A DNA stretch of 24,964 nt from positions 1 through 24,964 of the IMG/VR virus record IMGVR_UViG_3300047440_000060, one strand, 5' to 3'. Origin of the DNA: a virus. Of the stretch, positions 6,986-23,987 are shown one piece after another. Under the pieces are notes generated by a model that worked only from the letters and a program-made list of their open reading frames with translations, did no database searches and had not been told where the DNA came from. Both the position numbers and the translations under genes were made by a program. Each line of letters opens with the position of its first letter. Positions within the stretch are counted from its first letter, which is position 1.

Positions 6986-8871
6986 GCGGCGACATTCGTG
7001 GTGTTATTGGTCACATTGCCACCCGCGAGCGCGCGACCGAGATTGCCGATGGCGGTGTTGACCTGGTTGCTCTGCGCGACGTTGGCGGCGATGAGGCCGT
7101 TGAGTTGGTTGCCGCTCTGGCCGGTTAGGCTAGCGCCGACCTGCAACAGATTGTTGGATTGCCCGATCAGTGAGTTGTAAAGATTCGCGCCAAGCTGCTC
7201 GAAGCCAAGACCCTGTTGTTGCAGTTGCAACGCGATCTGGGTGCCCTGCGTCACGGCGCGGGCCTTAACGGCATTGATGTCCTGCAATTCGCTGGACGAC
7301 CCCGACATGCCGCGCGAGGCATATTGACCCTTGATGGTCTGAATGGCGGCGTTGGACGCCTGATCGATCGCGCCCTGCACACCGGGCGGCAACGTGCCGT
7401 TTTCCAGGTGCGAGGCAAGTGACTGACCTTGTGACACGGCGGATGTGGCGAGATCGGTGGCACCCGCCCTTGGCGCCGATTGTTGCCCAAGACCCTGCCC
7501 AATCAGGCTCTGGCCTTGCGCGCCTGTCGTGTTGGAGAGGTTCGTCAGTTGCGGAATGCCGGGGATTTGCTGCGGTGCGGCGAGGTCTTTCAGCAATCCT
7601 CCGCCGGTAATCGCGAGGCCCGCCAATTTCAGCGGATCGCTGGCGGCATTCTCCAAAGATGTGCCGATCTTGCCTGGAATTGACGCTAACGATCCACCAA
7701 TCCGCTGCAACAATCCTGGCGGTCCGCCCTCTGGTGGAACCGGCGGCACGACATCGGTGGGCAATCCCGTATCGTTGCCGAACGTCGCGCCAAAATCACT
7801 CGCGATCTGTTGCGGATTGATTGGCGCGGTGCCACCAACGTCAACCAGGCCACCGCCTGTATCCGTCGCCCCCGGCGCGAGCGAGGTCGCCGTATCCGAT
7901 GCCCCCGAGAACAGGCTTCCAGGCGTGCCTTGCGTCGCGGCGGTGAAGTCCAGCGCGCCCGGCCCGCCACCACCCAAGGCCGCCGGCGGTGAAAAAGCCG
8001 CCGTACCGCCCGCCGTGCTACCAGGACCGGCGCCCCCGCCCAAACTGGCGAGTGTCGCCTGTGGCGCCCCGGCGCTGGTCGCGATGTCCCCGCCGCTACC
8101 ACCAAAGGTCGGAATACCTTGCGCGGCTTGCGTGAACGGCGTCACGGGCGGCGGCGCCGCTATGGGAGCCGTCGCGCCACCACCAAGATCGCTCAGCGTT
8201 CCACCGGCACTCGCGAGACCGCTCGCGACATCACCACCTACGGCACCGCCGATATCTCCGGCGATACTAAGATCGGCACCAGCCAGCGATCCCGGCGCGA
8301 GCGCGCCAAACGAAGACGCGGGATCAGCCAGTGCCGTGGCCTGCGCCGCTGTATCAGATGGAATAAAAGAAGCGGTTTCCCCACCACCTGAGAACGATCC
8401 GCCGCCAGCCACATTGCCAAATTGCGTTCCGGTTGGGTCAACCGCGCCAGCGAAATTCCCCGTCAACCCGGCGACATTGCCAAAGTTCGCGCCCACTGAA
8501 CCAGCCGAACCAGCGGCATCAAAAGCACCCGCGCCAAAGCCCCCCGTGAACAAATCAGCGCCAGACAGAGACCCCGCCGGCAACGCACCAAAACTGGACG
8601 CTGGATCAGCCAAGGCCGCCGCCTGGGAAGCCGTGTCACCGGCAACGCCACCCACACCACCAAGCAATTCCCCGGCGCCAGCCGTCAATGCTCCACCAAG
8701 GCCGCCAAACAAAGCACCTTGCGCGGGCTTGCCGCCCGTGATGGCACTTCCCGCGGCGCCCAGACCCGCGCCCTCAACACCCGCGACAATGATCGGCGCG
8801 GCGGCTTCAGCGAACGCACCACCGCCAAGAGCCAGCGCCAACGCCTCGCCAATTCCGAAATCAAGCGGCAT
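6982..8871 (-). CDS. Gly/Ala-rich putative internal virion protein
   Basis: I chose the ATG at 8871 (MPLDFGIGEALALA) over an upstream in-frame ATG at 8925 because it overlaps the previous stop by only 11 bases and starts directly in the conserved-looking sequence. The 629-aa product is low complexity (Gly, Ala, Ser) for its first two-thirds, with a 29-residue internal repeat at 79-107 and 173-201. The last third is helical and Gln-rich; it includes GQYASRGMSGSSSELQDINA, a pattern I associate with podoviral core proteins. It lies between the GNAT-like gene and the transglycosylase-bearing giant, the place of gp14/gp15 in T7. A core or ejection role is inferred from position and composition only. 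Confidence 0.6.
   Translation of the reverse strand: MPLDFGIGEALALALGGGAFAEAAAPIIVAGVEGAGLGAAGSAITGGKPAQGALFGGLGGALTAGAGELLGGVGGVAGDTASQAAALADPASSFGALPAGSLSGADLFTGGFGAGAFDAAGSAGSVGANFGNVAGLTGNFAGAVDPTGTQFGNVAGGGSFSGGGETASFIPSDTAAQATALADPASSFGALAPGSLAGADLSIAGDIGGAVGGDVASGLASAGGTLSDLGGGATAPIAAPPPVTPFTQAAQGIPTFGGSGGDIATSAGAPQATLASLGGGAGPGSTAGGTAAFSPPAALGGGGPGALDFTAATQGTPGSLFSGASDTATSLAPGATDTGGGLVDVGGTAPINPQQIASDFGATFGNDTGLPTDVVPPVPPEGGPPGLLQRIGGSLASIPGKIGTSLENAASDPLKLAGLAITGGGLLKDLAAPQQIPGIPQLTNLSNTTGAQGQSLIGQGLGQQSAPRAGATDLATSAVSQGQSLASHLENGTLPPGVQGAIDQASNAAIQTIKGQYASRGMSGSSSELQDINAVKARAVTQGTQIALQLQQQGLGFEQLGANLYNSLIGQSNNLLQVGASLTGQSGNQLNGLIAANVAQSNQVNTAIGNLGRALAGGNVTNNTTNVAA
8269..8355 (-). 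repeat. 29-residue repeat, copy 2
   Basis: It encodes residues 173-201 of the Gly/Ala-rich protein, containing ADPASSFGALAPGSLAGADL. It begins 94 residues after copy 1. Confidence 0.75.
8551..8637 (-). repeat. 29-residue repeat, copy 1
   Basis: It encodes residues 79-107 of the Gly/Ala-rich protein, containing ADPASSFGALPAGSLSGADL. It matches copy 2 at 24 of 29 residues by eye, while the DNA differs at many silent positions. Confidence 0.75.
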
Positions 8872-9343
8872 GATCGATGACCTTGGTGAAAGTGCGGGAA
8901 ACCGGCCTGTAGCCCATGTGTTCAAGCAATCGACCGAGACCAGGAAACCGCTCGTTGACCTGCATGTGAATGACCGTCACGCCCTCAGCCAGCAATGCCG
9001 CCTCGGCATGGCGCATCAGGCGCAGCGACACCATCGGGCGCCGAAACGCGGGCAGCACGTAGAGCGCGTCGGAAATCCCCGCCTTGGCGGCGGCGTGCAT
9101 CCCGGTGAACACGAACAGCGACACGTAACCCACCAGCACCCCGTGATGACGCACGGTGTAAATCCGCAGCGCGCCAACCCGCTCCATCGCGAGATAGCGA
9201 TCGTCGGCCAGCGCGAATTCGCCCGCCTCGGTCTGCCCCGCCTCGATCCATTGCGCCGCCAACATGGGCCGCGCCTCATCGATCACGGTGGCGAACGCCT
9301 CGCGCTGAAAGGAAAAGGCCGAAGCGGATGAGGCGTCGAACAT
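8861..9343 (-). CDS. GNAT-like acetyltransferase-fold protein
   Basis: The start at 9343 (MFDASSASAFSFQ) was chosen because it shares one base with the upstream stop (TAATG), giving 160 aa; an in-frame ATG 36 bases upstream would extend into the previous gene. The order of elements fits the GNAT fold: GVLVGYVSLFVF (strand 4), then ALYVLPAFRRPMVSLRLMRHAEAAL (strand 5 and the CoA-binding turn, here RRPMVS rather than the usual Q/RxxGxG/A), then VTVIHMQVNE and LLEHMGYRPVSRTFTKVI. In T7-like phages the first internal virion gene (gp13) has, as I recall, been placed in the acetyltransferase superfamily, and the position here is equivalent. It may therefore be structural rather than catalytic. The altered CoA loop leaves activity uncertain. 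Confidence 0.7.
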   Translation of the reverse strand: MFDASSASAFSFQREAFATVIDEARPMLAAQWIEAGQTEAGEFALADDRYLAMERVGALRIYTVRHHGVLVGYVSLFVFTGMHAAAKAGISDALYVLPAFRRPMVSLRLMRHAEAALLAEGVTVIHMQVNERFPGLGRLLEHMGYRPVSRTFTKVIDHAA

Positions 9344-9819
9344 TACCCCTCCTTCGCCGGCTGCTGGCCCAGATGCCACGCATGGACCTCATACTTCGTC
9401 AGCTTGCCGATGCGATGGCGGATGTAGGACCGGTCGCAGTCCATCAGATCGGACAAGATCATGGTTTCCATGCCGCAGCGCCGCATCCAGGTCAGCATGG
9501 CGCGGTGCAACTCGGCGATCTCGTCACCCTCCACGTCGCCCTCGCCTGACTTGCCAAGCGCGAACCATACCTTGGCGTAAGGCACGCCGGTCAGGTTCTC
9601 CGGCACGGAGCGGATGGCGGCGACCGCGTTCTGGGTCCGCACCACCTGTTCCTCGTTGCTGACGGTCATCAGCATCAGGCGCGAGCGCAGGCCGATATAA
9701 GTGCTGTCCGGATACAGCGTCATCAGGCGCGGGATCAGCCACCCCTCGACTTCCGCGATGTCCGGGGCGAACGCGCGCCATACCTTGATCGGTTCGACTT
9801 CCACGAAGGTCGCGCTCAT
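9343..9819 (-). CDS. Phage protein of unknown function in core-protein cluster
   Basis: The 158-aa product starts MSATFVEVEPIKVWRAF; its ATG overlaps the preceding stop as ATGA. It has a mixed alpha/beta look. The C-terminal part (MRRCGMETMILSDLMD, then DRSYIRHRIGKLTKYEVHAW) is reminiscent of the last strand-helix units of GNAT proteins. It could therefore be a second, degenerate member of that fold beside the clearer one downstream, but I see no CoA-binding loop. A role in the virion core or in connecting core to tail is inferred from position. The two downstream overlaps indicate coupled translation. Confidence 0.65.
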   Translation of the reverse strand: MSATFVEVEPIKVWRAFAPDIAEVEGWLIPRLMTLYPDSTYIGLRSRLMLMTVSNEEQVVRTQNAVAAIRSVPENLTGVPYAKVWFALGKSGEGDVEGDEIAELHRAMLTWMRRCGMETMILSDLMDCDRSYIRHRIGKLTKYEVHAWHLGQQPAKEG

Positions 9820-15021: not shown

Positions 15022-16080
15022 TCAGAACGATGCGCCGCCGAAACCAAAGACCCAGGCCCCACTTGAACTTTTCGCGCTCACAACCTGATAACCCAAAACG
15101 CAAACCCCCTGTTGTCCGATCTGTCCAAGCGGCACGAGACTATGGAACCCCGACCAATCCAACGCGGCGTCCTCGCTGATGTAGAACGTGGTGTATTTCA
15201 CGTTCAGCGCGAACATATTGCCGACCGGGCAGAAATGATCGCTGAACACCGGAACGCCGGCGATGTTGATGTTGGGGAAGGACGAGCGAACGTCGGTATC
15301 GAGGTTGTAGTTGCCGTTCGGCTGAATGCGGACCTGTTCGACGCCGATGATGTCGTTGTTCAGCGTGGCGTAGTCGGCGGGATTCATGATCATCGCGGTC
15401 GGTGCCTCGCCGCCCGCCGTGTCGGTGATCTTGGTCAGCAGGCTGGACATCGCCTTGCGGTTCCAACCCAGCGTCGCGGTGGTGAAATTGGTGTTCCACG
15501 AAGACGGGTTGCCGGCGTTGATGTACTGGCCCTTGAAGTTTGCGTTGCCCGCCGAGGTTCGGTTGATGCCGCCATAGACCGGCAGGTTGGTGCCGTCATC
15601 GAAGGCGTCGGCCAGGGAGTTCGGAAACTGCGGCGTGTTGCCGACCGAGGACTTGTAGAGCAGCGTGGCGATGTTCTGCCGCGTGGTGGCATACACATCG
15701 TTCATCCTCGCCTTGAGCAGCGAGATCACCGTGTCGGTCGATTGCAGGATGCTTTCACCGAACATCAGCGGCACCGGCACCACCCAGTAGGCGAGGTTCC
15801 ACTGGCCGTTCTGAATGGCCGGGATCACCACCGGAGCGTTGAAGCCGCCCGCGTAGTTGGTGAACTGCCCCTGGACCATGGACTGGCCCTGCATCGGGAT
15901 CGTGACCTGGTTGAGACCGCCCGCCGCGCGCTGCGCGTTGCCCCACAGGAAAAACAGGCCGGGCGAGGCGAAATACAACTGCACGAACAGCTTTCGCACG
16001 AAGGCGCGCTGCACGACCGATGAGAGTTCGTTGAACGCGGCGCCCGCCGGAGGGGCAACACCTAAACCCGCGAGTGCCAT
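15022..16080 (-). CDS. Major capsid protein
   Basis: 352 aa. An N-terminal arm (SSVVQRAFVRKLFVQLYFAS) is followed by an Ile/Val/Gln-rich beta stretch, long helices with Arg/Asn, and a conserved-looking late block (AMIMNPADYATLNND, NINIAGVPVFSDHFCPVGNM, YISEDAALDWSGF). That order, the length and the place right after a scaffold-like gene fit an HK97-fold podoviral capsid protein. AAGGAA lies about 7 bases before the ATG at 16080. No frameshift site or second capsid form is visible. The protein forms the icosahedral shell around the DNA. Identification rests on pattern and context; no search was run. Confidence 0.85.
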   Translation of the reverse strand: MALAGLGVAPPAGAAFNELSSVVQRAFVRKLFVQLYFASPGLFFLWGNAQRAAGGLNQVTIPMQGQSMVQGQFTNYAGGFNAPVVIPAIQNGQWNLAYWVVPVPLMFGESILQSTDTVISLLKARMNDVYATTRQNIATLLYKSSVGNTPQFPNSLADAFDDGTNLPVYGGINRTSAGNANFKGQYINAGNPSSWNTNFTTATLGWNRKAMSSLLTKITDTAGGEAPTAMIMNPADYATLNNDIIGVEQVRIQPNGNYNLDTDVRSSFPNINIAGVPVFSDHFCPVGNMFALNVKYTTFYISEDAALDWSGFHSLVPLGQIGQQGVCVLGYQVVSAKSSSGAWVFGFGGASF

Positions 16081-16097: not shown

Positions 16098-16688
16098 TCA
16101 ACGGTTGGCCCGCGCGTCGGCGATGGCCGCGGCGATTTCCTTGTCCACCCGGCGCTCATCGACGTTGCCGCCGGGCGAGCCGGACTTCATCAGGTCCATG
16201 ACGTAGGTATCCTCGGCATCGTCGCGATTGCCGAACAGGCCGAAGTTACCGCCCGACGTGGATGGCGCGGGCGCCGGATTGCGGGTCTGCCAGGCGTCGG
16301 CGGCGATGGAGAGGTCGGCGATGCCGTTTTCCTCGGCGAATGTCTTCACCGCGTCGATGCCGGCCTGCCGCCACCCGGCGGCGCGAAGCTGCGACGCCTG
16401 GCCTTCCCATTTGGCGTTGAAGCGCGCGAGCGTGCGTTCTTCCTCGGCCACCCGGTCGCGTTCGGCCAGATCGGCGCGCAATTTGTTCAGTTCGCCGCGC
16501 ACATCGTCCACGGCGGCATTGACCGGCGCGGCGGCGTCGATTTCGGGGATCGAGACGGTCGGATCGACGGTCTTGCGGGCCTGAAGGATCAGCTTGCGGG
16601 CCGCCGGATTGGACATCATGCGCTGCACCACGGCGGTCACGCCGGCGGCGGCGTTGTAGTCGGCTTCCTCGACCTCGATCCGCGCCAT
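16098..16688 (-). CDS. Capsid scaffolding protein
   Basis: 196 aa. It has a charged helical middle (VDDVRGELNKLRADLAERDR, VAEEERTLARFNAKWEG) likely to be coiled coil, a flexible Pro/Ser/Gly section (PAPAPSTSGGNFG), and a short basic-acidic C-terminal helix (DERRVDKEIAAAIADARANR). Location 17 bases upstream of the capsid gene, modest size and coiled-coil content are the standard signs of a podoviral scaffold. It would template procapsid assembly through its C-terminal helix and then leave. No protease motif is seen. It starts 3 bases after the preceding TAA. Confidence 0.75.
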   Translation of the reverse strand: MARIEVEEADYNAAAGVTAVVQRMMSNPAARKLILQARKTVDPTVSIPEIDAAAPVNAAVDDVRGELNKLRADLAERDRVAEEERTLARFNAKWEGQASQLRAAGWRQAGIDAVKTFAEENGIADLSIAADAWQTRNPAPAPSTSGGNFGLFGNRDDAEDTYVMDLMKSGSPGGNVDERRVDKEIAAAIADARANR

Positions 16689-16691
16689 GGC

Positions 16692-16874
16692 TTACGCCCC
16701 GCGCCCGTTGCCGGAGACGTGCGTCACGTTCATGTCGGTCGCCTTGTTGGCGTTCGGGAGATGCGACTTGCGCCCGCCAATGTCCTGCTGCTCCATGTCC
16801 ACGCGGACGATCTGGCCGTCCGACTTGGGAACCTTGGCAGTCGGGTCCTGAAAGATACTACCGCTAACAGCCAT
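16692..16874 (-). CDS. Small virion-module protein, unknown function
   Basis: 60 aa, MAVSGSIFQDPTAKVPKSDG at the start and NVTHVSGNGRGA at the end; polar, without membrane segment or known motif. An AGGAG site sits 7 bases before the ATG at 16874 and partly overlaps the TAG of the upstream Gly/Pro-rich gene, so expression is probably linked. Small proteins between portal and scaffold are common in podoviruses; its own role is unknown. The good ribosome-binding site is the main support for it being a real gene. Confidence 0.7.
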   Translation of the reverse strand: MAVSGSIFQDPTAKVPKSDGQIVRVDMEQQDIGGRKSHLPNANKATDMNVTHVSGNGRGA

Positions 16875-16884
16875 GTTATTTCTC

Positions 16885-17343
16885 CTACGCCGCTGGGGGC
16901 GTCATGGGGGGTTTCGGCGCACCGCCCGGCGGCATTCCGCCTGGGGCACCGCCACCAGGAGCGGACGCCTGCAACGCGGCGGCGTGCGGCTGATTCTGTT
17001 GCTGCTTCATGGCGAGGTTCCGCAGCCCGTCACTGGGCGGGGCACCGGCCTGAGCGTGCTTGCCGAGTAGTTGCATGATCTTGACCAGATCCTGGCCGAA
17101 TGGCGTCGAGGCGCCGACTTTTGGTAAGATCATGGCGACGGTATCGACCATCGCCCCGGCCAGTTTCTGCGCCTGGGCCATGGAACCCAGGTTCTGGGTC
17201 GGGCCGGTCATCGGCGAGGAGCCGATCGGGGGCGCGCCACCGCCTGGCGGTCCTCCCGCTCCTGGCGGTCCACCAGGGGGGGCACCACCCGGCGGTGGAG
17301 GCATACCGCCCCCGGCGCCAGGCGGTGTCAGTGAAGCGGACAC
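16885..17343 (-). CDS. Gly/Pro-rich head-module protein
   Basis: 152 aa from a GTG start (MSASLTPPGAGGGMPPPPGG). Two low-complexity Gly/Pro arms flank a helical core at about 50-105 (LGSMAQAQKLAGAMVDTVAM, then FGQDLVKIMQLLGKHAQ). Similar proteins with Pro/Gly tails occur between portal and scaffold in some podoviruses, but I cannot name a family. The GTG lies 7 bases after the stop of a 13-aa micro-ORF and has only a weak AGGCG upstream, so its translation may depend on the micro-ORF. An internal ATG at residue 14 would be an alternative start inside low-complexity sequence. Confidence 0.65.
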   Translation of the reverse strand: MSASLTPPGAGGGMPPPPGGAPPGGPPGAGGPPGGGAPPIGSSPMTGPTQNLGSMAQAQKLAGAMVDTVAMILPKVGASTPFGQDLVKIMQLLGKHAQAGAPPSDGLRNLAMKQQQNQPHAAALQASAPGGGAPGGMPPGGAPKPPMTPPAA

Positions 17344-17349
17344 GAAGGC

Positions 17350-17391
17350 TTAGCGCCTGCCGTGCTTGCGCCGACGATAACGAATGTTCAT
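17350..17391 (-). CDS. Micro-ORF: 13-aa polybasic peptide
   Basis: It encodes MNIRYRRRKHGRR, nine of 13 residues Arg, Lys or His. A strong AGGAGA site lies 5-6 bases before the ATG at 17391, better than the sites of many larger genes here. Its stop is 7 bases before the GTG of the Gly/Pro-rich gene. It could be a real DNA- or RNA-binding micropeptide, or a leader whose translation couples to the next gene. It resembles the neighbouring 18-aa micro-ORF at its C-terminus (RRRK, GRR). Confidence 0.45.
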   Translation of the reverse strand: MNIRYRRRKHGRR

Positions 17392-17438
17392 GTCGATCTC
17401 CTGGGTGTGAGGGGGTTCATTGGAGGGAGCCGGCGGAA

Positions 17439-17495
17439 TTACTTCCGGCGGCCCTTACGGCGGCGCGCGCGAGCGGCCTTATCGGTGGGAATCAT
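17439..17495 (-). CDS. Micro-ORF: 18-aa polybasic peptide
   Basis: It encodes MIPTDKAARARRRKGRRK, ten of 18 residues Arg or Lys. A near-perfect AAGGAGA site sits 5 bases before the ATG at 17495. It is the first minus-strand frame after the gap holding the plus-strand HTH gene, so it would head the capsid transcript if a promoter lies in 17496-17624. Function is unknown: a protamine-like DNA-binding peptide is one option, a leader peptide another. Confidence 0.5.
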   Translation of the reverse strand: MIPTDKAARARRRKGRRK

Positions 17496-17624
17496 CGTTC
17501 TCTCCTTGCCCCCACGGAATGCGGGTGACGGAAGGACCGTGCGGATGTGGCGCGGAAATAAGCAACTGGTTGAAATCGCGCGTGAAAGCGTCTAACACCG
17601 CGTTACCGCGTGAAAGGGTGCCGC
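17496..17624. promoter_or_regulatory. Divergent intergenic region, candidate promoters
   Basis: This 129-base stretch separates the minus-strand micro-ORFs from the plus-strand HTH gene and is the longest stretch without a gene. On the plus strand TTGAAA (17570-17575) and TCTAAC (17591-17596) are 15 bases apart, a weak match to a sigma70-type promoter with short spacing. A promoter for the capsid genes on the minus strand would be expected here, but I see no convincing boxes. The only other clear element is a 10-bp direct repeat. Confidence 0.3.
17579..17616 (+). repeat. 10-bp direct repeat pair upstream of HTH gene
   Basis: CGCGTGAAAG occurs at 17579-17588 and again at 17607-17616, 28 bases apart, the second ending 8 bases before the HTH start codon. 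Two tandem identical sites before a DNA-binding gene are a common arrangement for autoregulatory operators. Both lie within or just after the candidate promoter, so binding there could block transcription. Confidence 0.5.
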
Positions 17625-17813
17625 ATGGAAGCGTCGATGTCCCGAAGACTTGGCTCCAAGGAGGTCTGCGATCGGTTGCAAAAGTCGTATGACTGGCTTC
17701 GCAAGACCCGCAAGGCGCCAGGATCGGGACCGCCCTGCTATCGCATAGGCGCCCGCTATCAGTATCCCGTCAATGAGTTCGAGGCGTGGCTGGAAAAGCA
17801 GAGAATTGACTGA
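17625..17813 (+). CDS. Small helix-turn-helix DNA-binding protein (excisionase/AlpA-like)
   Basis: This is the only plus-strand gene in the window. From ATG 17625, 7 bases after a GAAAGGG site, it gives 62 aa; a GTG at 17610 and an ATG at 17637 are alternative starts. The pattern LGSKEVCDRLQKSYDWLRKT, then CYRIGARYQYPVNEFEAWLE fits the winged-HTH family called HTH_17 (excisionase, AlpA and MerR-like N-terminal domains): the recognition helix, a wing with YRIG and a closing EFEAWL helix. It probably binds DNA as a regulator, perhaps of the neighbouring micro-ORFs and head genes or of itself. It converges with the methyltransferase, 6 bases apart, with no visible terminator. Placement against the operon direction suggests a separately acquired unit. 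Confidence 0.75.
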   Translation: MEASMSRRLGSKEVCDRLQKSYDWLRKTRKAPGSGPPCYRIGARYQYPVNEFEAWLEKQRID

Positions 17814-17819
17814 AACCGC

Positions 17820-18545
17820 CTACATCGTCTCCGCTTCGACCTTGATTCCCGACTCCACGAGCCGTTTTCTTGGCGCGCACAGCATATTTTGCTTATCGAA
17901 ACGAAAAAACGTGTAATCCAGGCCGTCGAAACACGATTTCAGCGCGTCAACGTCGGATAAATTGTATTCGCACCAGACCCATGGCCGAAATTCCACCAGA
18001 GAGCGCCGCGCGCCGGTCAAAACCTGGAATTCCATGCCCTCAACGTCGATTTTCAGGAGGTCGAGGCGGCGAAAACCAAAGTCATCCACTAATGATACCA
18101 TGACATCGGTGGATTTTGTGTCACTGGATTGCCTCAACGACACCAAACCAAAGTCCTGGGGTATTGAGTAGTCCATTATCGGCATTTGAACAAACCCGGC
18201 GACATTCGACAAGCCGGATGGATGCACGATAAGGTTCCCCAAATCATTCAATACCACCGTTCCGCACAACGCTTGCCAGAACGGTTCCTGAATTTCATAG
18301 GCGTGAACCACGCCGCCCTTCGCCTTTACCGTGTTCGCCAACGGCACGCTGATCAGACCGTGCGAGGCGCCCGCGTCCACGATGACGCACTTCTCAGGCA
18401 ACGTGTTGGCGATGCCCACGAGCGCCGCGATCTCGGCCTCGATGTGCGTGGCGCCGGTTTTGACGATCCACTCCGCCACATAGGCGCAATGCCGGTTGAC
18501 GATGAACTTACCGTGGATGGAATCGAGAACAATCCAGGGACTCAT
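17820..18545 (-). CDS. FkbM-family SAM-dependent methyltransferase
   Basis: 241 aa. SAM-binding motif I is VIVDAGASHG (54-63), with the acidic Glu84 after strand 2. The FkbM signature LLKIDVEGMEFQVLTGA (163-179) and the following RPWVWCEYN complete the Rossmann methyltransferase core. FkbM enzymes methylate hydroxyls on sugars or other small-molecule acceptors; the substrate here is unknown. The ATG overlaps the stop of the 70-aa gene as ATGA, so it is expressed with the portal genes. GC in a hand-counted 120-base sample at its 3' end is 49%, against 63% in a portal sample, a sign of recent transfer. It is not needed for virion assembly, so a glycan-modifying role on host or virion is the likely use. 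Confidence 0.85.
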   Translation of the reverse strand: MSPWIVLDSIHGKFIVNRHCAYVAEWIVKTGATHIEAEIAALVGIANTLPEKCVIVDAGASHGLISVPLANTVKAKGGVVHAYEIQEPFWQALCGTVVLNDLGNLIVHPSGLSNVAGFVQMPIMDYSIPQDFGLVSLRQSSDTKSTDVMVSLVDDFGFRRLDLLKIDVEGMEFQVLTGARRSLVEFRPWVWCEYNLSDVDALKSCFDGLDYTFFRFDKQNMLCAPRKRLVESGIKVEAETM

Positions 18546-18754
18546 ATCACATTACCCAGACTGTCCACCCAATCAGGCTTCCCCACTTCGTATCTGCCCG
18601 CTGAAAACTCGGTCAGACTGACATACCAGCACGTCGTTTCCAACGGCACGTTATTCAACGGATGAACACGGTTCGTTCTAAGCACCATGAAAACCAGATG
18701 GCGTGCGTTCAGGCCGCAGTACCATTTCCTGTTCCGGGTCAGATTGATCCTCAC
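18542..18754 (-). CDS. Small unknown protein next to methyltransferase
   Basis: 70 aa from a GTG start that overlaps the portal stop as GTGA: MRINLTRNRKWYCGLNARHL at the start, then ETTCWYVSLTEF and WVDSLGNVI. It has a compact alpha/beta composition with two cysteines, no signal and no membrane segment. Its stop overlaps the methyltransferase start by four bases, so the two were probably acquired or are at least expressed together. It is AT-richer than the portal gene. I do not recognise a family. Confidence 0.65.
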   Translation of the reverse strand: MRINLTRNRKWYCGLNARHLVFMVLRTNRVHPLNNVPLETTCWYVSLTEFSAGRYEVGKPDWVDSLGNVI

Positions 18755-20529
18755 TTCTTCTTCGCCCCTCCGGTGATCGCCTTTTCAGCGGCGTGCGCGT
18801 AACCCTCCGGGTCCAGTCGTTTCAGTTCCGCCATCTGAGCCGCTTGTGCCACAGCCGCTTCCTTCATCCGCGCGATCAGCGTCTCCTTGTTCTGGAACGG
18901 CAGCATCTCGATGGCCGATTGCTTGTCCACCAGGCCCATCTTCAAGCCGCCGACCAGCAAACTCTGGTGTTCATCGGCGAAGATCGGCGAGGTCGTGTGA
19001 CCGTCCACCACCACGCGCCGGTCGTCCGGAATATCGGTCAGCAGAAAACCGGTTTCCTCGATCTTCTCGGCGTCCAGCCAAAACTTGCGGCCGTCCTTCG
19101 CCTCCATCAGCGACAACCGCAGATCCGCCGCCTTGGCGCACTGCCGCTCGATCAACAGGCTATCGTCCTTCAACCGCGCGCTCGCCACCTTCATCAGTGG
19201 ATTGGCCTGCACGCCCGAGCGCACGCCCGATTCGCCCTTGCCCGAAAGCATGTTGTCGAAGCCCGCGATCAGGTCGATGATGCCGATCAACCGCTCGATC
19301 AGCGGCAGGGTCTCCGGCGGTATCTTCGGCGTCAGATCGTTGACCGCGCCGCCCGGCCCCAGGTTCATGTAGCCCGCCGTCTTCATCTGCCCGTATTGCT
19401 CGTCGGTCAGGCCGTCGCCGGTGATGGCGAGGATTTTATCCACCTGTAGCCCGAACAACTGCCGTAGGTCGGTCATGGTCTGGCTGAGGAAGTCCTGCGT
19501 GGACATGACATCGGCCAGTTCCGACCGGCCCCAGATATTGCCCGCCTGCTGGTTCGCCTGGATCAGCGTGTAGGGGTGCAGACCGCTGTCCTGGGCCTGG
19601 ATCAGCATGTTGCCCATCTTGGCCCATGGCGCGATCAGAATGTCCGGCTCGATCAACTGGATGGTGGAATAGTCCGCGCCGTGCCAGACCCAGATTTCGT
19701 GGAATACCACGGTCGGGGCGGCGGGATCGGGCCGTGCGCCATCGAAGGCGCCGGTCGAGGTCAACGCCACCACACCACCCGGCATCGGGCGCGTCGCGGA
19801 CTCGAACTGCAGCGGCGATGATGACAGCACCGGATGGTTCCAGGACTGCTCCATGTTGCCCTGATTGCCGGCGGCGTTGGACTTGATCCGCTCGAACAGC
19901 GCCCGCGCGTCGGGGCGTTGCCAGATGCGGCGCCAGACTTCCGGCAGGGTGATGGTCGAGGTTTCCACCATGGCTGGTTGTTCGTCCAGATCGTCCATGT
20001 CCGGGCGATACACGCCGAATTGCCACGGCATGATCAGTCCCGAGCGGTATTCCGGCAGGCGGTCGGAACCGGACACGACGGGCCATTGCTTGAGGATGGA
20101 TGCGCCGTATTTCAGGCTTTCGAACACGCCCTGGGCGAACTGCGTGTCGGTGTTGGTGCGTTCCCAGGACCGGCCCAGCAGGCGCGTCACCACGCGGCCC
20201 CGTTCCTTGGTGATCTTGTCGTAGTCGTTCTCGAAGTCGAGGCTGAACCGAATGTCGGTCGGCGAGTAGAGCATGGCCGCGCGCCGGTCCAGCAGCGCGA
20301 ACATCAGGTTGCACATGGACTTCGTGTTGTCGAAGCGGCCAGCCTCCACGAAGTCGTGATAGGCGCGATAGGTGGCCGACCGCTGGCCGACGTTGGAGCG
20401 GCAGATATCGATCAGTTCATGCGCGATGCGAATGATGCCCTGGTCATCATCGGGCAGGCCCCACAAGGCTTCGGGCGGCGAGTAGGCGCCGCGGGTTTTC
20501 AGGCGGACGACGTTGCCGGGGCGGGCCAT
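18751..20529 (-). CDS. Portal protein
   Basis: 592 aa from MARPGNVVRLKTRG, whose ATG shares one base with the upstream stop (TGATG); the reading frame is open further upstream but only as overlap. The protein has long helical segments, an IWGRSELADVMSTQDFL block typical of the portal crown-stem helix, and SGKGESGVRSGVQANPLMKV followed by long helices, as in podoviral portals. It ends with a Lys-rich tail (GGAKKK). It forms the dodecameric channel at one capsid vertex, docking the terminase during packaging. Location after terL and two to three small genes, and before scaffold and capsid, is the standard order. It is somewhat longer than T7 gp8 (536 aa). Confidence 0.85.
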   Translation of the reverse strand: MARPGNVVRLKTRGAYSPPEALWGLPDDDQGIIRIAHELIDICRSNVGQRSATYRAYHDFVEAGRFDNTKSMCNLMFALLDRRAAMLYSPTDIRFSLDFENDYDKITKERGRVVTRLLGRSWERTNTDTQFAQGVFESLKYGASILKQWPVVSGSDRLPEYRSGLIMPWQFGVYRPDMDDLDEQPAMVETSTITLPEVWRRIWQRPDARALFERIKSNAAGNQGNMEQSWNHPVLSSSPLQFESATRPMPGGVVALTSTGAFDGARPDPAAPTVVFHEIWVWHGADYSTIQLIEPDILIAPWAKMGNMLIQAQDSGLHPYTLIQANQQAGNIWGRSELADVMSTQDFLSQTMTDLRQLFGLQVDKILAITGDGLTDEQYGQMKTAGYMNLGPGGAVNDLTPKIPPETLPLIERLIGIIDLIAGFDNMLSGKGESGVRSGVQANPLMKVASARLKDDSLLIERQCAKAADLRLSLMEAKDGRKFWLDAEKIEETGFLLTDIPDDRRVVVDGHTTSPIFADEHQSLLVGGLKMGLVDKQSAIEMLPFQNKETLIARMKEAAVAQAAQMAELKRLDPEGYAHAAEKAITGGAKKK

Positions 20530-20771
20530 CAGGTTTTTGCTTTCGGTTCTTTGATCCACGCCGGCGCGAGCGCGTAGCCGCCGGTCGCCTCGTCGGGCAC
20601 CAGCACTTCGCGGCCCAGCAGCGAGAACAGCGTGGGCCAGGTGCAGATGGGCAGGTTGCCGAGCATGATCAGCGGCTCGTTCGACCGGTGCGGCTTGATC
20701 GTGGCGGCCTCCGCCGCGCGCAGCAGCGTCACCACGTAAGCCTGCTCGTCGCTCAACGGGGCGGTTGCCAT
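20529..20771 (-). CDS. Small protein upstream of portal, unknown function
   Basis: 80 aa, MATAPLSDEQAYVVTLLRAA at the start, then NEPLIMLGNLPICTWPTLFS and ATGGYALAPAWIKEP. It is soluble and mixed alpha/beta, without a recognised motif. Both ends share one base with neighbours (TGATG), so it sits in a coupled chain between the zinc-ribbon protein and the portal. It may assist packaging or portal assembly; that is a guess from place only. Confidence 0.7.
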   Translation of the reverse strand: MATAPLSDEQAYVVTLLRAAEAATIKPHRSNEPLIMLGNLPICTWPTLFSLLGREVLVPDEATGGYALAPAWIKEPKAKT

Positions 20772-21364
20772 CAGCGGCGTCTCCTGTAGCCCGGTGCCTG
20801 GGTCTCATTGGCGGGCAGTTCGGTGGTCATGGTGGTATTGGCGAAGACGCGGCTGTTGCCCGGCTCGGTGCCCGCGGCGACCCGCGAGGCCGCCGTGAGC
20901 GCGTGGCCCTGGCGCAGCTTCATCATGGCGTCCAGGCCCGCGTTGACGTGGTGGCCGGCGAAGACAGATTGCTGAAGGCCAGCCGCGATCGGCCCGCCGT
21001 CGATGAAGCCGAGGCCGCCCGGTGTGGCCGATACCGGCGGTGCCGCGATCTCGCCTTCCTTCAGGTTGTCCCGCATGTCGGTGATCTTGATCGCGGACGC
21101 TTCCTCGGTGGTCAGGCCGTGGGTCTCTTGCGCCATCTGTGCGCGGAACGCGGCGCCCGCCTCCATCTCGCGGTAATAAGCATCGGTGTTCCTGCCGATG
21201 GACTTAGCGATATGCGGCATTACCAAAGCGGGCGCCATGGAACCGGCGGCGGCGTCGCAACCGGTGTAAGGGCAAGCCGAGACCGGATCAGCCTCAACAC
21301 TCGGATGATGGTCATACTCGAACACCCTCTGACACGACGGGCAGCGATAGCGGCGGCGGATCAT
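20771..21364 (-). CDS. Zinc-ribbon phage protein between terminase and portal
   Basis: 197 aa. The N-terminus (MIRRRYRCPSCQRVFEYDHH) has Cys8 and Cys11, and ACPYTGC adds Cys31 and Cys36. These four would form a zinc ribbon like those of the FmdB/rubredoxin-like type. The remainder is helical and polar (YYREMEAGAAFRAQMAQET, then IKITDMRDNLKEGEI), ending in RRR. The ATG overlaps the upstream stop as ATGA. Its place between terL and portal suggests a packaging-related or DNA-contacting role, but no function is known to me. Confidence 0.7.
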   Translation of the reverse strand: MIRRRYRCPSCQRVFEYDHHPSVEADPVSACPYTGCDAAAGSMAPALVMPHIAKSIGRNTDAYYREMEAGAAFRAQMAQETHGLTTEEASAIKITDMRDNLKEGEIAAPPVSATPGGLGFIDGGPIAAGLQQSVFAGHHVNAGLDAMMKLRQGHALTAASRVAAGTEPGNSRVFANTTMTTELPANETQAPGYRRRR

Positions 21365-23504: not shown

Positions 23505-23773
23505 CAGCGCCGCCCGAACCCGCCCATGGACCCGCCCCGTTCGTCCTCGGCGATCTGATCCAGCGCGATCTTGGCCTTGGTCGAGACCAGTGACCAGAAC
23601 ACCGCCGGCGAGGCGGATGGATCGAGGATCAGCGTCGTCACCACGTCGCCTTCTCCCGGCGGCACCAGCGCGAAGCACCCCGCGAAGCCGTTCCCGGCGT
23701 TCAGCGTCACCTTGGCCGAGAGTTCGTCCAGCGCCGCGGCGGCCTGAAGAGCGCGGGGGTCGGGGTCACTCAT
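23504..23773 (-). CDS. Small protein upstream of terL, unknown function
   Basis: 89 aa from ATG 23773 (MSDPDPRALQAAAALDELSA), which overlaps the KTSC gene by 8 bases; a start 21 bases upstream is also in frame. It has beta-rich middle sequence (GFAGCFALVPP, VVTTLILDP) and a helical end (STKAKIALDQIAEDERGG). It lies where a terminase small subunit often is, but no helix-turn-helix or central oligomerisation helix pattern is seen, so I do not call it TerS. It is directly coupled to terL. Confidence 0.65.
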   Translation of the reverse strand: MSDPDPRALQAAAALDELSAKVTLNAGNGFAGCFALVPPGEGDVVTTLILDPSASPAVFWSLVSTKAKIALDQIAEDERGGSMGGFGRR

Positions 23774-23987
23774 CAGACACGTACCGATGCTCATACCGCC
23801 CGATCACCGATTCCCGCACGAACGTCCCGACACTCCACGAGTTCGCCGCGCGCTCGGCCACGTCGGCGGGAACGCCCGCGTAGGACGATAGCTTGCCGGA
23901 CTTCCAACGGATGAACAGCGTGCCGTTGTCGTAGCCCACGGCATCGACGTTGCTCGACGTGACCTCGCGCATGTCAGGAACGGGCAT
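23766..23987 (-). CDS. KTSC-domain protein
   Basis: 73 aa. The product is almost entirely one KTSC domain: SSNVDAVGYDNGTLFIRWKS, then YAGVPADVAERAANSWSVGT, then VIGRYEHRYV. The pattern VxSSNxxAxGYD...L.I.F..G..Y.Y..VP is typical of the family. KTSC domains occur alone or with other domains in phages and bacteria; they are small beta-rich units of unknown or binding function. AGAGGA lies 6 bases upstream of the ATG at 23987. It overlaps the previous gene by 14 bases and the next by 8. Its role in this phage is unknown. Confidence 0.85.
   Translation of the reverse strand: MPVPDMREVTSSNVDAVGYDNGTLFIRWKSGKLSSYAGVPADVAERAANSWSVGTFVRESVIGRYEHRYVSDE

Follow-up and report, generated by a model that had tools for sequence, protein, structure and literature searches.

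Comparison with related phages shows that two adjacent polybasic micro-ORFs between the portal and head genes of a virus are genuine, conserved genes under amino-acid-level selection, and that structured RNA leaders, identified from covariation, precede micro-ORFs of the same family in several lineages.

Two adjacent micro-ORFs precede the head genes

The window, by which we mean the whole stretch of DNA analysed, is a virus record of 24,964 bases in which both micro-ORFs lie on the minus strand between the portal gene and the head genes. Micro-ORF 1 (17439..17495, minus) encodes the 18-residue peptide MIPTDKAARARRRKGRRK, which is the same in three close relatives of the window (L002, L003 and L004), and its AGGAGA ribosome-binding site (17501..17506, minus; spacer 5 nt) is likewise kept in all three. 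Micro-ORF 2 (17350..17391, minus) encodes the 13-residue MNIRYRRRKHGRR behind a second AGGAGA site (17397..17402, minus; spacer 5 nt) that is kept in relatives, and the two are probably tandem relatives of one another. Arginine and lysine form fractions of 0.50 and 0.54 of the two peptides, with charges of +7.5 and +6.6 at pH 7, and by the criterion of high Arg/Lys content both resemble the DNA-condensing virion peptides adenovirus Mu and phiX174 J. The preliminary description of this DNA had reported tiny adjacent polybasic ORFs after strong AGGAGA sites, and these are present as claimed, on the minus strand and with both spacers at 5 nt. Shuffling the whole window under a second-order Markov model and counting on both strands gave a mean of 0.275 SD-preceded polybasic ORFs (R+K >= 40%, 8-25 aa), compared to the two adjacent ones observed plus one weak match within another gene at 17240.

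The micro-ORFs occupy a conserved slot in a large phage group

We fetched relatives from IMG/VR by similarity searches with the major capsid protein (15022..16080, minus; phrog_9953, E=6.9e-11) and obtained two clades: clade 1, to which the window belongs, with 58-100% capsid identity and largest contigs of ~62-68 kb, and clade 2, with ~34% capsid identity, which includes GenBank records MW202753 and MW202825 (34-36 kb). The group is large and mostly uncultured, with more than 590 capsid matches, and nearly all of the ~160 related viruses, from soil and freshwater, carry versions of the micro-ORFs. Only two matches were to cellular genomes, an Acetobacteraceae MAG from a bog (L263) and a Patescibacteria MAG (L264); these capsid relatives are weak host hints, and the contigs are possibly mis-binned phage DNA.

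The relatives share a slot between the portal and scaffold/capsid genes that holds SD-preceded polybasic ORFs of 9-19 codons. Among loci with enough upstream sequence, at least one such micro-ORF passed our cut-off in 96 of 98 clade-1 loci; the other two (L049/L247, one contig) encode MQTFELAKYRGAKRGRRK, slightly below the composition cut-off, making conservation effectively 98/98. A micro-ORF was present in 58 of 61 clade-2 loci, 51 of which have two copies, designated A and B. Tandem pairs are frequent both in clade 2 and within the subclade of the window, a single SD-bearing copy is found in most clade-1 phages, and L004, the nearest diverged relative of the window (89% capsid identity), has three micro-ORFs in tandem. 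Example peptides include MARKHRKGRK (10 aa) and MLTYNRRGRRGRRK, with MYKKMKRGRKTRR for A and MARKARKGRKARK for B. Across ~170 related loci the density of SD-preceded polybasic ORFs is 0.72/kb in the slot versus off-slot values of 0.008/kb for the same strand and 0.005/kb for the opposite one, an enrichment of ~100-fold. Nearly all relatives keep the reading frames, their SD sites, the location and the polybasic composition; a lack of conserved frames or ribosome sites, which would have counted against the initial proposal, was looked for and not found.

Apparent gaps in this distribution arise where a contig ends, where the SD site is weak or where a variant has 39% R+K, and no fusion of the peptide to portal or neighbouring proteins was found in seemingly negative loci. 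True loss is confined to L148, L150, L159 and L160, a clade-2 subgroup in which both micro-ORFs and the pseudoknot described below are gone and the head genes are retained; given this loss of both peptides, their function is not indispensable. Some other loci have A alone or B alone. The four loci of the subgroup are in effect natural knockouts with which other loci can be compared.

Ten phage records with distantly related capsids (L181-L190: Mx8, Mx9, BUCT555, ppBjS10J-1, Mwe-JY13, MW202803, MW202489, Brad, TM7 phage and MT835830) contained no SD-preceded polybasic micro-ORF upstream of the capsid gene. We rejected an origin of the micro-ORFs in these relatives, whose small genes after the portal are not polybasic. 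The early characterization of the pair as not a standard podoviral feature therefore holds with respect to these ten phages, but within its own lineage the feature is standard.

In the GenBank relatives MW202753 and MW202825 the micro-ORFs are unannotated, with opposite-strand ORFs or nothing in their place. MW202753 has two short reverse-strand CDS annotated across the micro-ORFs and RNA (L087:4740-5038); these are probably wrong annotations, because reading frames on the antisense strand are not preserved across the clade.

Selection acts on the encoded amino acids

Comparison of the window with L004 revealed two changes in micro-ORF 1, both synonymous. Micro-ORF 2 differs at five sense codons, of which four encode the same amino acid (CGT->AGA, CGC->CGT, GGC->GGA, AGG->CGG). 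The resulting L004 peptide, MNIRHRRRKHGRR, differs by one Tyr->His replacement, and the stop codon is swapped from TAA in the window to TGA. In clade 2, pS exceeds pN for both A (0.69 versus 0.25) and B (0.51 versus 0.15), giving pN/pS ratios of 0.30-0.36, figures that are descriptive since the sequence pairs are not independent. Third positions account for 54-55% of differences in the clade-2 micro-ORFs, compared to about 33% downstream. The overall ratio in clade 1 is 0.82, because the peptides shift register and align poorly. The synonymous-site bias that had been suggested as a check in related tiny frames was therefore found, as codon-level purifying selection in clade 2 and between the window and L004.

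Counting from the C-terminal end, A has K at -4 in 98/98, R at -5 in 97/98 and R at -1 in 98/98, and B has K at -1 in 58/58 and R at -2 in 55/58, with the final-residue counts for both partly fixed by the family regexes. What is kept is Arg/Lys identity plus a small residue at each third position, beyond charge alone, and the core is often R-K-G-R-K-x-R-R/K-like. From these patterns we infer that the micro-ORFs are translated. Their Arg codons are mainly CGC/CGT (with CGG also in clade 1), and AGA/AGG make up at most 3%, which led us to reject a rare-codon stall.

These results leave a vanishingly small probability that the micro-ORFs are chance ORFs or arose as a side effect of an antisense gene or an RNA element. 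Arg codons are common in GC-rich DNA, and opposite-strand ORFs are annotated at this place in clade-2 GenBank records, as such an origin might predict; however, slot enrichment and the shuffle expectation refute the chance reading, and conservation and third-position bias oppose it as well. An antisense gene as the cause of conservation was rejected, since no single reverse frame spans the region without a stop in more than 7 of 59 loci.

Composition also bears on whether the peptides could be directed at the host, as membrane-active or lysis-assisting cationic peptides or as inhibitors of a host nucleic-acid enzyme. Activities of this kind are common among small cationic peptides, and structural genes, among which the micro-ORFs sit, are usually expressed late. 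But hydrophobic residues are nearly absent, making membrane lysis unlikely, and the head-module location and tight R-K-x periodicity also argue against a host target; we consider this explanation very improbable.

Micro-ORF translation is probably coupled to the next head gene in clade 1

Directly downstream of micro-ORF 2 in the window, a 152-residue Pro/Gly-rich head-module protein (16885..17343, minus; gene order as in L087/L088) starts at a GTG codon 6 nt past the micro-ORF stop and without an SD of its own, and is probably translationally coupled to micro-ORF 2. It is followed by a conserved 60-residue head-module protein (16692..16874, minus) found in the same place in relatives, a 196-residue acidic protein of pI 4.8 (16098..16688, minus) whose position suggests a scaffold role, and the major capsid gene. 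On the other side lies the portal gene (18751..20808, minus; phrog_64, E=5.5e-5, with a weak SPP1_portal match), given here from its first possible start, the true start being probably further in, near 20676.

Across the control region from the micro-ORFs is a divergent gene for a small HTH protein (17610..17813, plus; phrog_66, E=2.6e-5; PF12728 HTH_17, E=1e-5, just under cut-off). Four copies of a 13-nt repeat (CGCGTGAAAGCGT-like; 17579..17634, plus) between this gene and the micro-ORF operon are a possible operator. An FkbM-type methyltransferase gene (17820-18545, minus; PF05050, E=3.7e-12) is inserted between the portal gene and the micro-ORFs, and L004 has an ORF of similar size at this site. 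Elsewhere in the window, a GNAT acetyltransferase-like gene (8861-9379, minus; PF00583) lies amid tail genes, in a place comparable to that of an annotated acyl-CoA N-acyltransferase in Mx8 and Mx9 and an acetyltransferase in other distant relatives, and a KTSC-domain protein (23766-23987, minus; PF13619, E=2.5e-11) is encoded immediately before the terminase region.

The arrangement downstream of micro-ORF 2 recurs throughout clade 1, where the distance from micro-ORF stop to next gene start has a median of 7 nt (<=15 nt in 69/85) and the next gene lacks an SD in 77/85, compared to 84/85 micro-ORFs that have one; the script's entry for the window used the spurious ORF at 17240, and the near-identical L002 and L003 give the correct case. 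Such spacing, together with the usual lack of an SD on the next gene, makes it likely that micro-ORF translation is coupled to that gene in clade 1. The micro-ORF could then be a purely cis-acting leader, loading ribosomes that pass to the next head gene by termination-reinitiation, with the peptide itself irrelevant. In clade 2, however, a median of ~105 nt lies between the second micro-ORF and the head operon (the next gene lies within 15 nt in 2/61), with a TTGACA promoter-like site in MW202753 and, on visual inspection, in many further loci. The individual residues of the peptides are nevertheless conserved, and an R/K-specific sequence would be unnecessary in a leader. We therefore find a peptide-independent leader unlikely. 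The idea that the micro-ORFs are leader peptides controlling the head operon gains support as a coupling role in clade 1, while the clade-2 gap and its promoter-like site weaken a pure leader role.

Structured RNA leaders precede micro-ORFs in several lineages

Between A and B, clade-2 phages have a predicted hairpin, whose loop is often of GNRA type, and after it an H-type pseudoknot (L104:3732-3818 and 54 other loci; alignment A3). The pseudoknot helices covary, with pairing in 93% of cells; two-sided changes number 72, compared to 22.9 +/- 3 after shuffling and no more than 10 in slid controls. A pattern search for the pseudoknot returned at least 120 IMG/VR stretches, and of the 78 loci examined, 75 are untruncated, in every one of which micro-ORF B follows the pseudoknot; A is absent or went undetected in 17 loci. 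Two of the loci (L283 and L332) represent a third lineage with the pseudoknot, and encode the B-like peptides MARRMRRHKRK and MARRGRRHKRK. The candidate 'MAAFPLK', which would have been a further micro-ORF between A and B, was rejected, as it lies inside the pseudoknot and its start codon is not conserved.

Rfam gave nothing above gathering score for the leaders in ten whole clade-2 loci or, at relaxed threshold, in window positions 16800-17800 and L104 3650-3900; the searches returned a tRNA elsewhere in L105 and otherwise sub-threshold chance matches. The clade-2 hairpin and pseudoknot are a candidate new RNA family.

Part of clade 1 has a different element upstream of the micro-ORF, the type I leader (L035:5630-5732, L074:5629-5731 and others; alignment A4), with a covarying P1 helix and the conserved motifs GGCGGYTG, GAGGA and CAAC. 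RNAalifold detected almost nothing in clade-1 leaders, and in its place we used an alignment-free permutation test, in which 0 of 2000 permutations reached the observed support for the type I helix. Ten other clade-1 loci have a type II leader, consisting of GGAACCAAACGAGGTTGTCC plus a GCAC..GTGC hairpin. In the window, which has just three close relatives, folding of 17386-17500 predicts a hairpin, CCGCCGGAA-GTAA-TTCCGCCGG (17430..17451, minus), with the micro-ORF 1 stop in its loop, and L004 keeps the inner stem; upstream hairpins are weak, and neither of the two stretches tested folds more stably than its shuffled counterparts (z-scores 0.77 and -0.45).

The constant placement of the pseudoknot ahead of B, the covariation of both it and the type I helix, and the sequence-specific R/K/G pattern of the peptides are all compatible with autoregulation, in which a stand-alone arginine-rich motif (ARM) would bind its own leader (putatively the pseudoknot and hairpin in clade 2, or the P1 helix element in clade 1) and control translation of itself or the head genes, or transcript elongation. 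However, leader types vary among lineages while the peptides remain similar, and the window has only weak hairpins, and we judge autoregulation improbable.

Discussion

The interpretation we favor, to which we give slightly less than an even chance, is that the micro-ORFs encode free-standing polybasic peptides that act in trans as nucleic-acid binders in head assembly or packaging, with expression tuned by the leader and, in clade 1, coupled to the next gene. Both micro-genes would yield their peptides while heads form, and the peptide would grip or neutralise packaged DNA, or RNA, in the manner of a protamine or an ARM; the RNA leader would set the amount of peptide made, and in the window's clade the near-abutting stop and start would couple the micro-ORF to the next head gene, adding a role in cis. 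We infer nucleic-acid binding and the trans role from two patterns. First, both clades retain the peptide in different positions with respect to the head operon: it abuts head genes in clade 1 and lies ahead of a separate promoter-like site in clade 2. Second, A and B can each be lost singly, as if redundant, while residue identity is kept. A cis role for the clade-1 micro-ORF is possible from its abutment to the next gene, and the missing SD of that gene points to such an additional role.

By analogy, the peptides would work most like small basic virion peptides or stand-alone ARM peptides, though we do not assign them to either class. J of phiX174 and other Microviridae is a small basic protein of about 38 aa that binds packaged DNA inside the capsid. 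It shares with the micro-ORF products the character of a small basic phage protein, but it is longer and belongs to an ssDNA T=1 phage, whereas the micro-ORFs encode 9-19 aa in dsDNA tailed phages. Mature adenovirus Mu (pX), of ~19 aa, is similarly tiny and very basic. Mu is DNA-associated in the virion, as the micro-ORF peptides may be, and it is cut by a protease from a precursor, whereas the micro-ORF peptides are encoded at full size and are too short for a homology test. Adenovirus Mu, VII and V bind virion DNA, and the 79-residue pre-mu may compact DNA (PMC4189039).

With ARMs (lambda/P22 N peptide-boxB, BIV Tat-TAR) the micro-ORF peptides share a short Arg/Lys/Gly-rich sequence, and covarying RNA adjoins the micro-ORF in clade 2 and part of clade 1, with weak hairpins in the window; however, ARMs are domains of larger proteins with known effectors, whereas these peptides stand alone and their binding is putative. 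The ARM peptides of N-boxB and BIV Tat-TAR fold on structured RNA. In phage N protein it is the N-terminal ARM that binds boxB (PMC11480772). Leader peptides and coupled upstream ORFs resemble the clade-1 arrangement, in which a tiny ORF with a strong SD lies just before a structural gene and is probably coupled to it, but differ in that the micro-ORF peptide sequence is conserved and is retained away from the next gene in clade 2.

We found no description of a 9-19 aa polybasic head-module gene family in the open-access papers searched. The phage small-gene catalogue of Fremin et al. 2022 reportedly covers ORFs below 50-100 codons. The GMSC catalogue includes products from 9 aa upward (PMC11364881), and the micro-ORF peptides may be listed, unrecognised, in catalogues such as this.

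More speculatively, RNA and peptide may form a previously undescribed two-part module of tailed phages, in which a covarying RNA, either the H-type pseudoknot or an alternative leader, would control the 9-19-residue polybasic peptide whose gene follows it and might itself be a target of that peptide; we regard this as doubtful but worth stating. If true, these would be among the shortest conserved phage genes known, and the peptide would be a stand-alone nucleic-acid-binding motif in head formation. At 9-19 codons the micro-ORFs are short enough for gene finders to miss, yet they are near-universal in an abundant phage group. If the products are virion peptides, tailed dsDNA phages would possess protamine-like packaging aids, which would bear on how these phages handle DNA charge and pressure, and if they bind the RNA leaders, they would form a minimal natural peptide-RNA regulatory pair. 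Either way, the micro-ORFs provide a clean, testable case of function in ultra-short genes.
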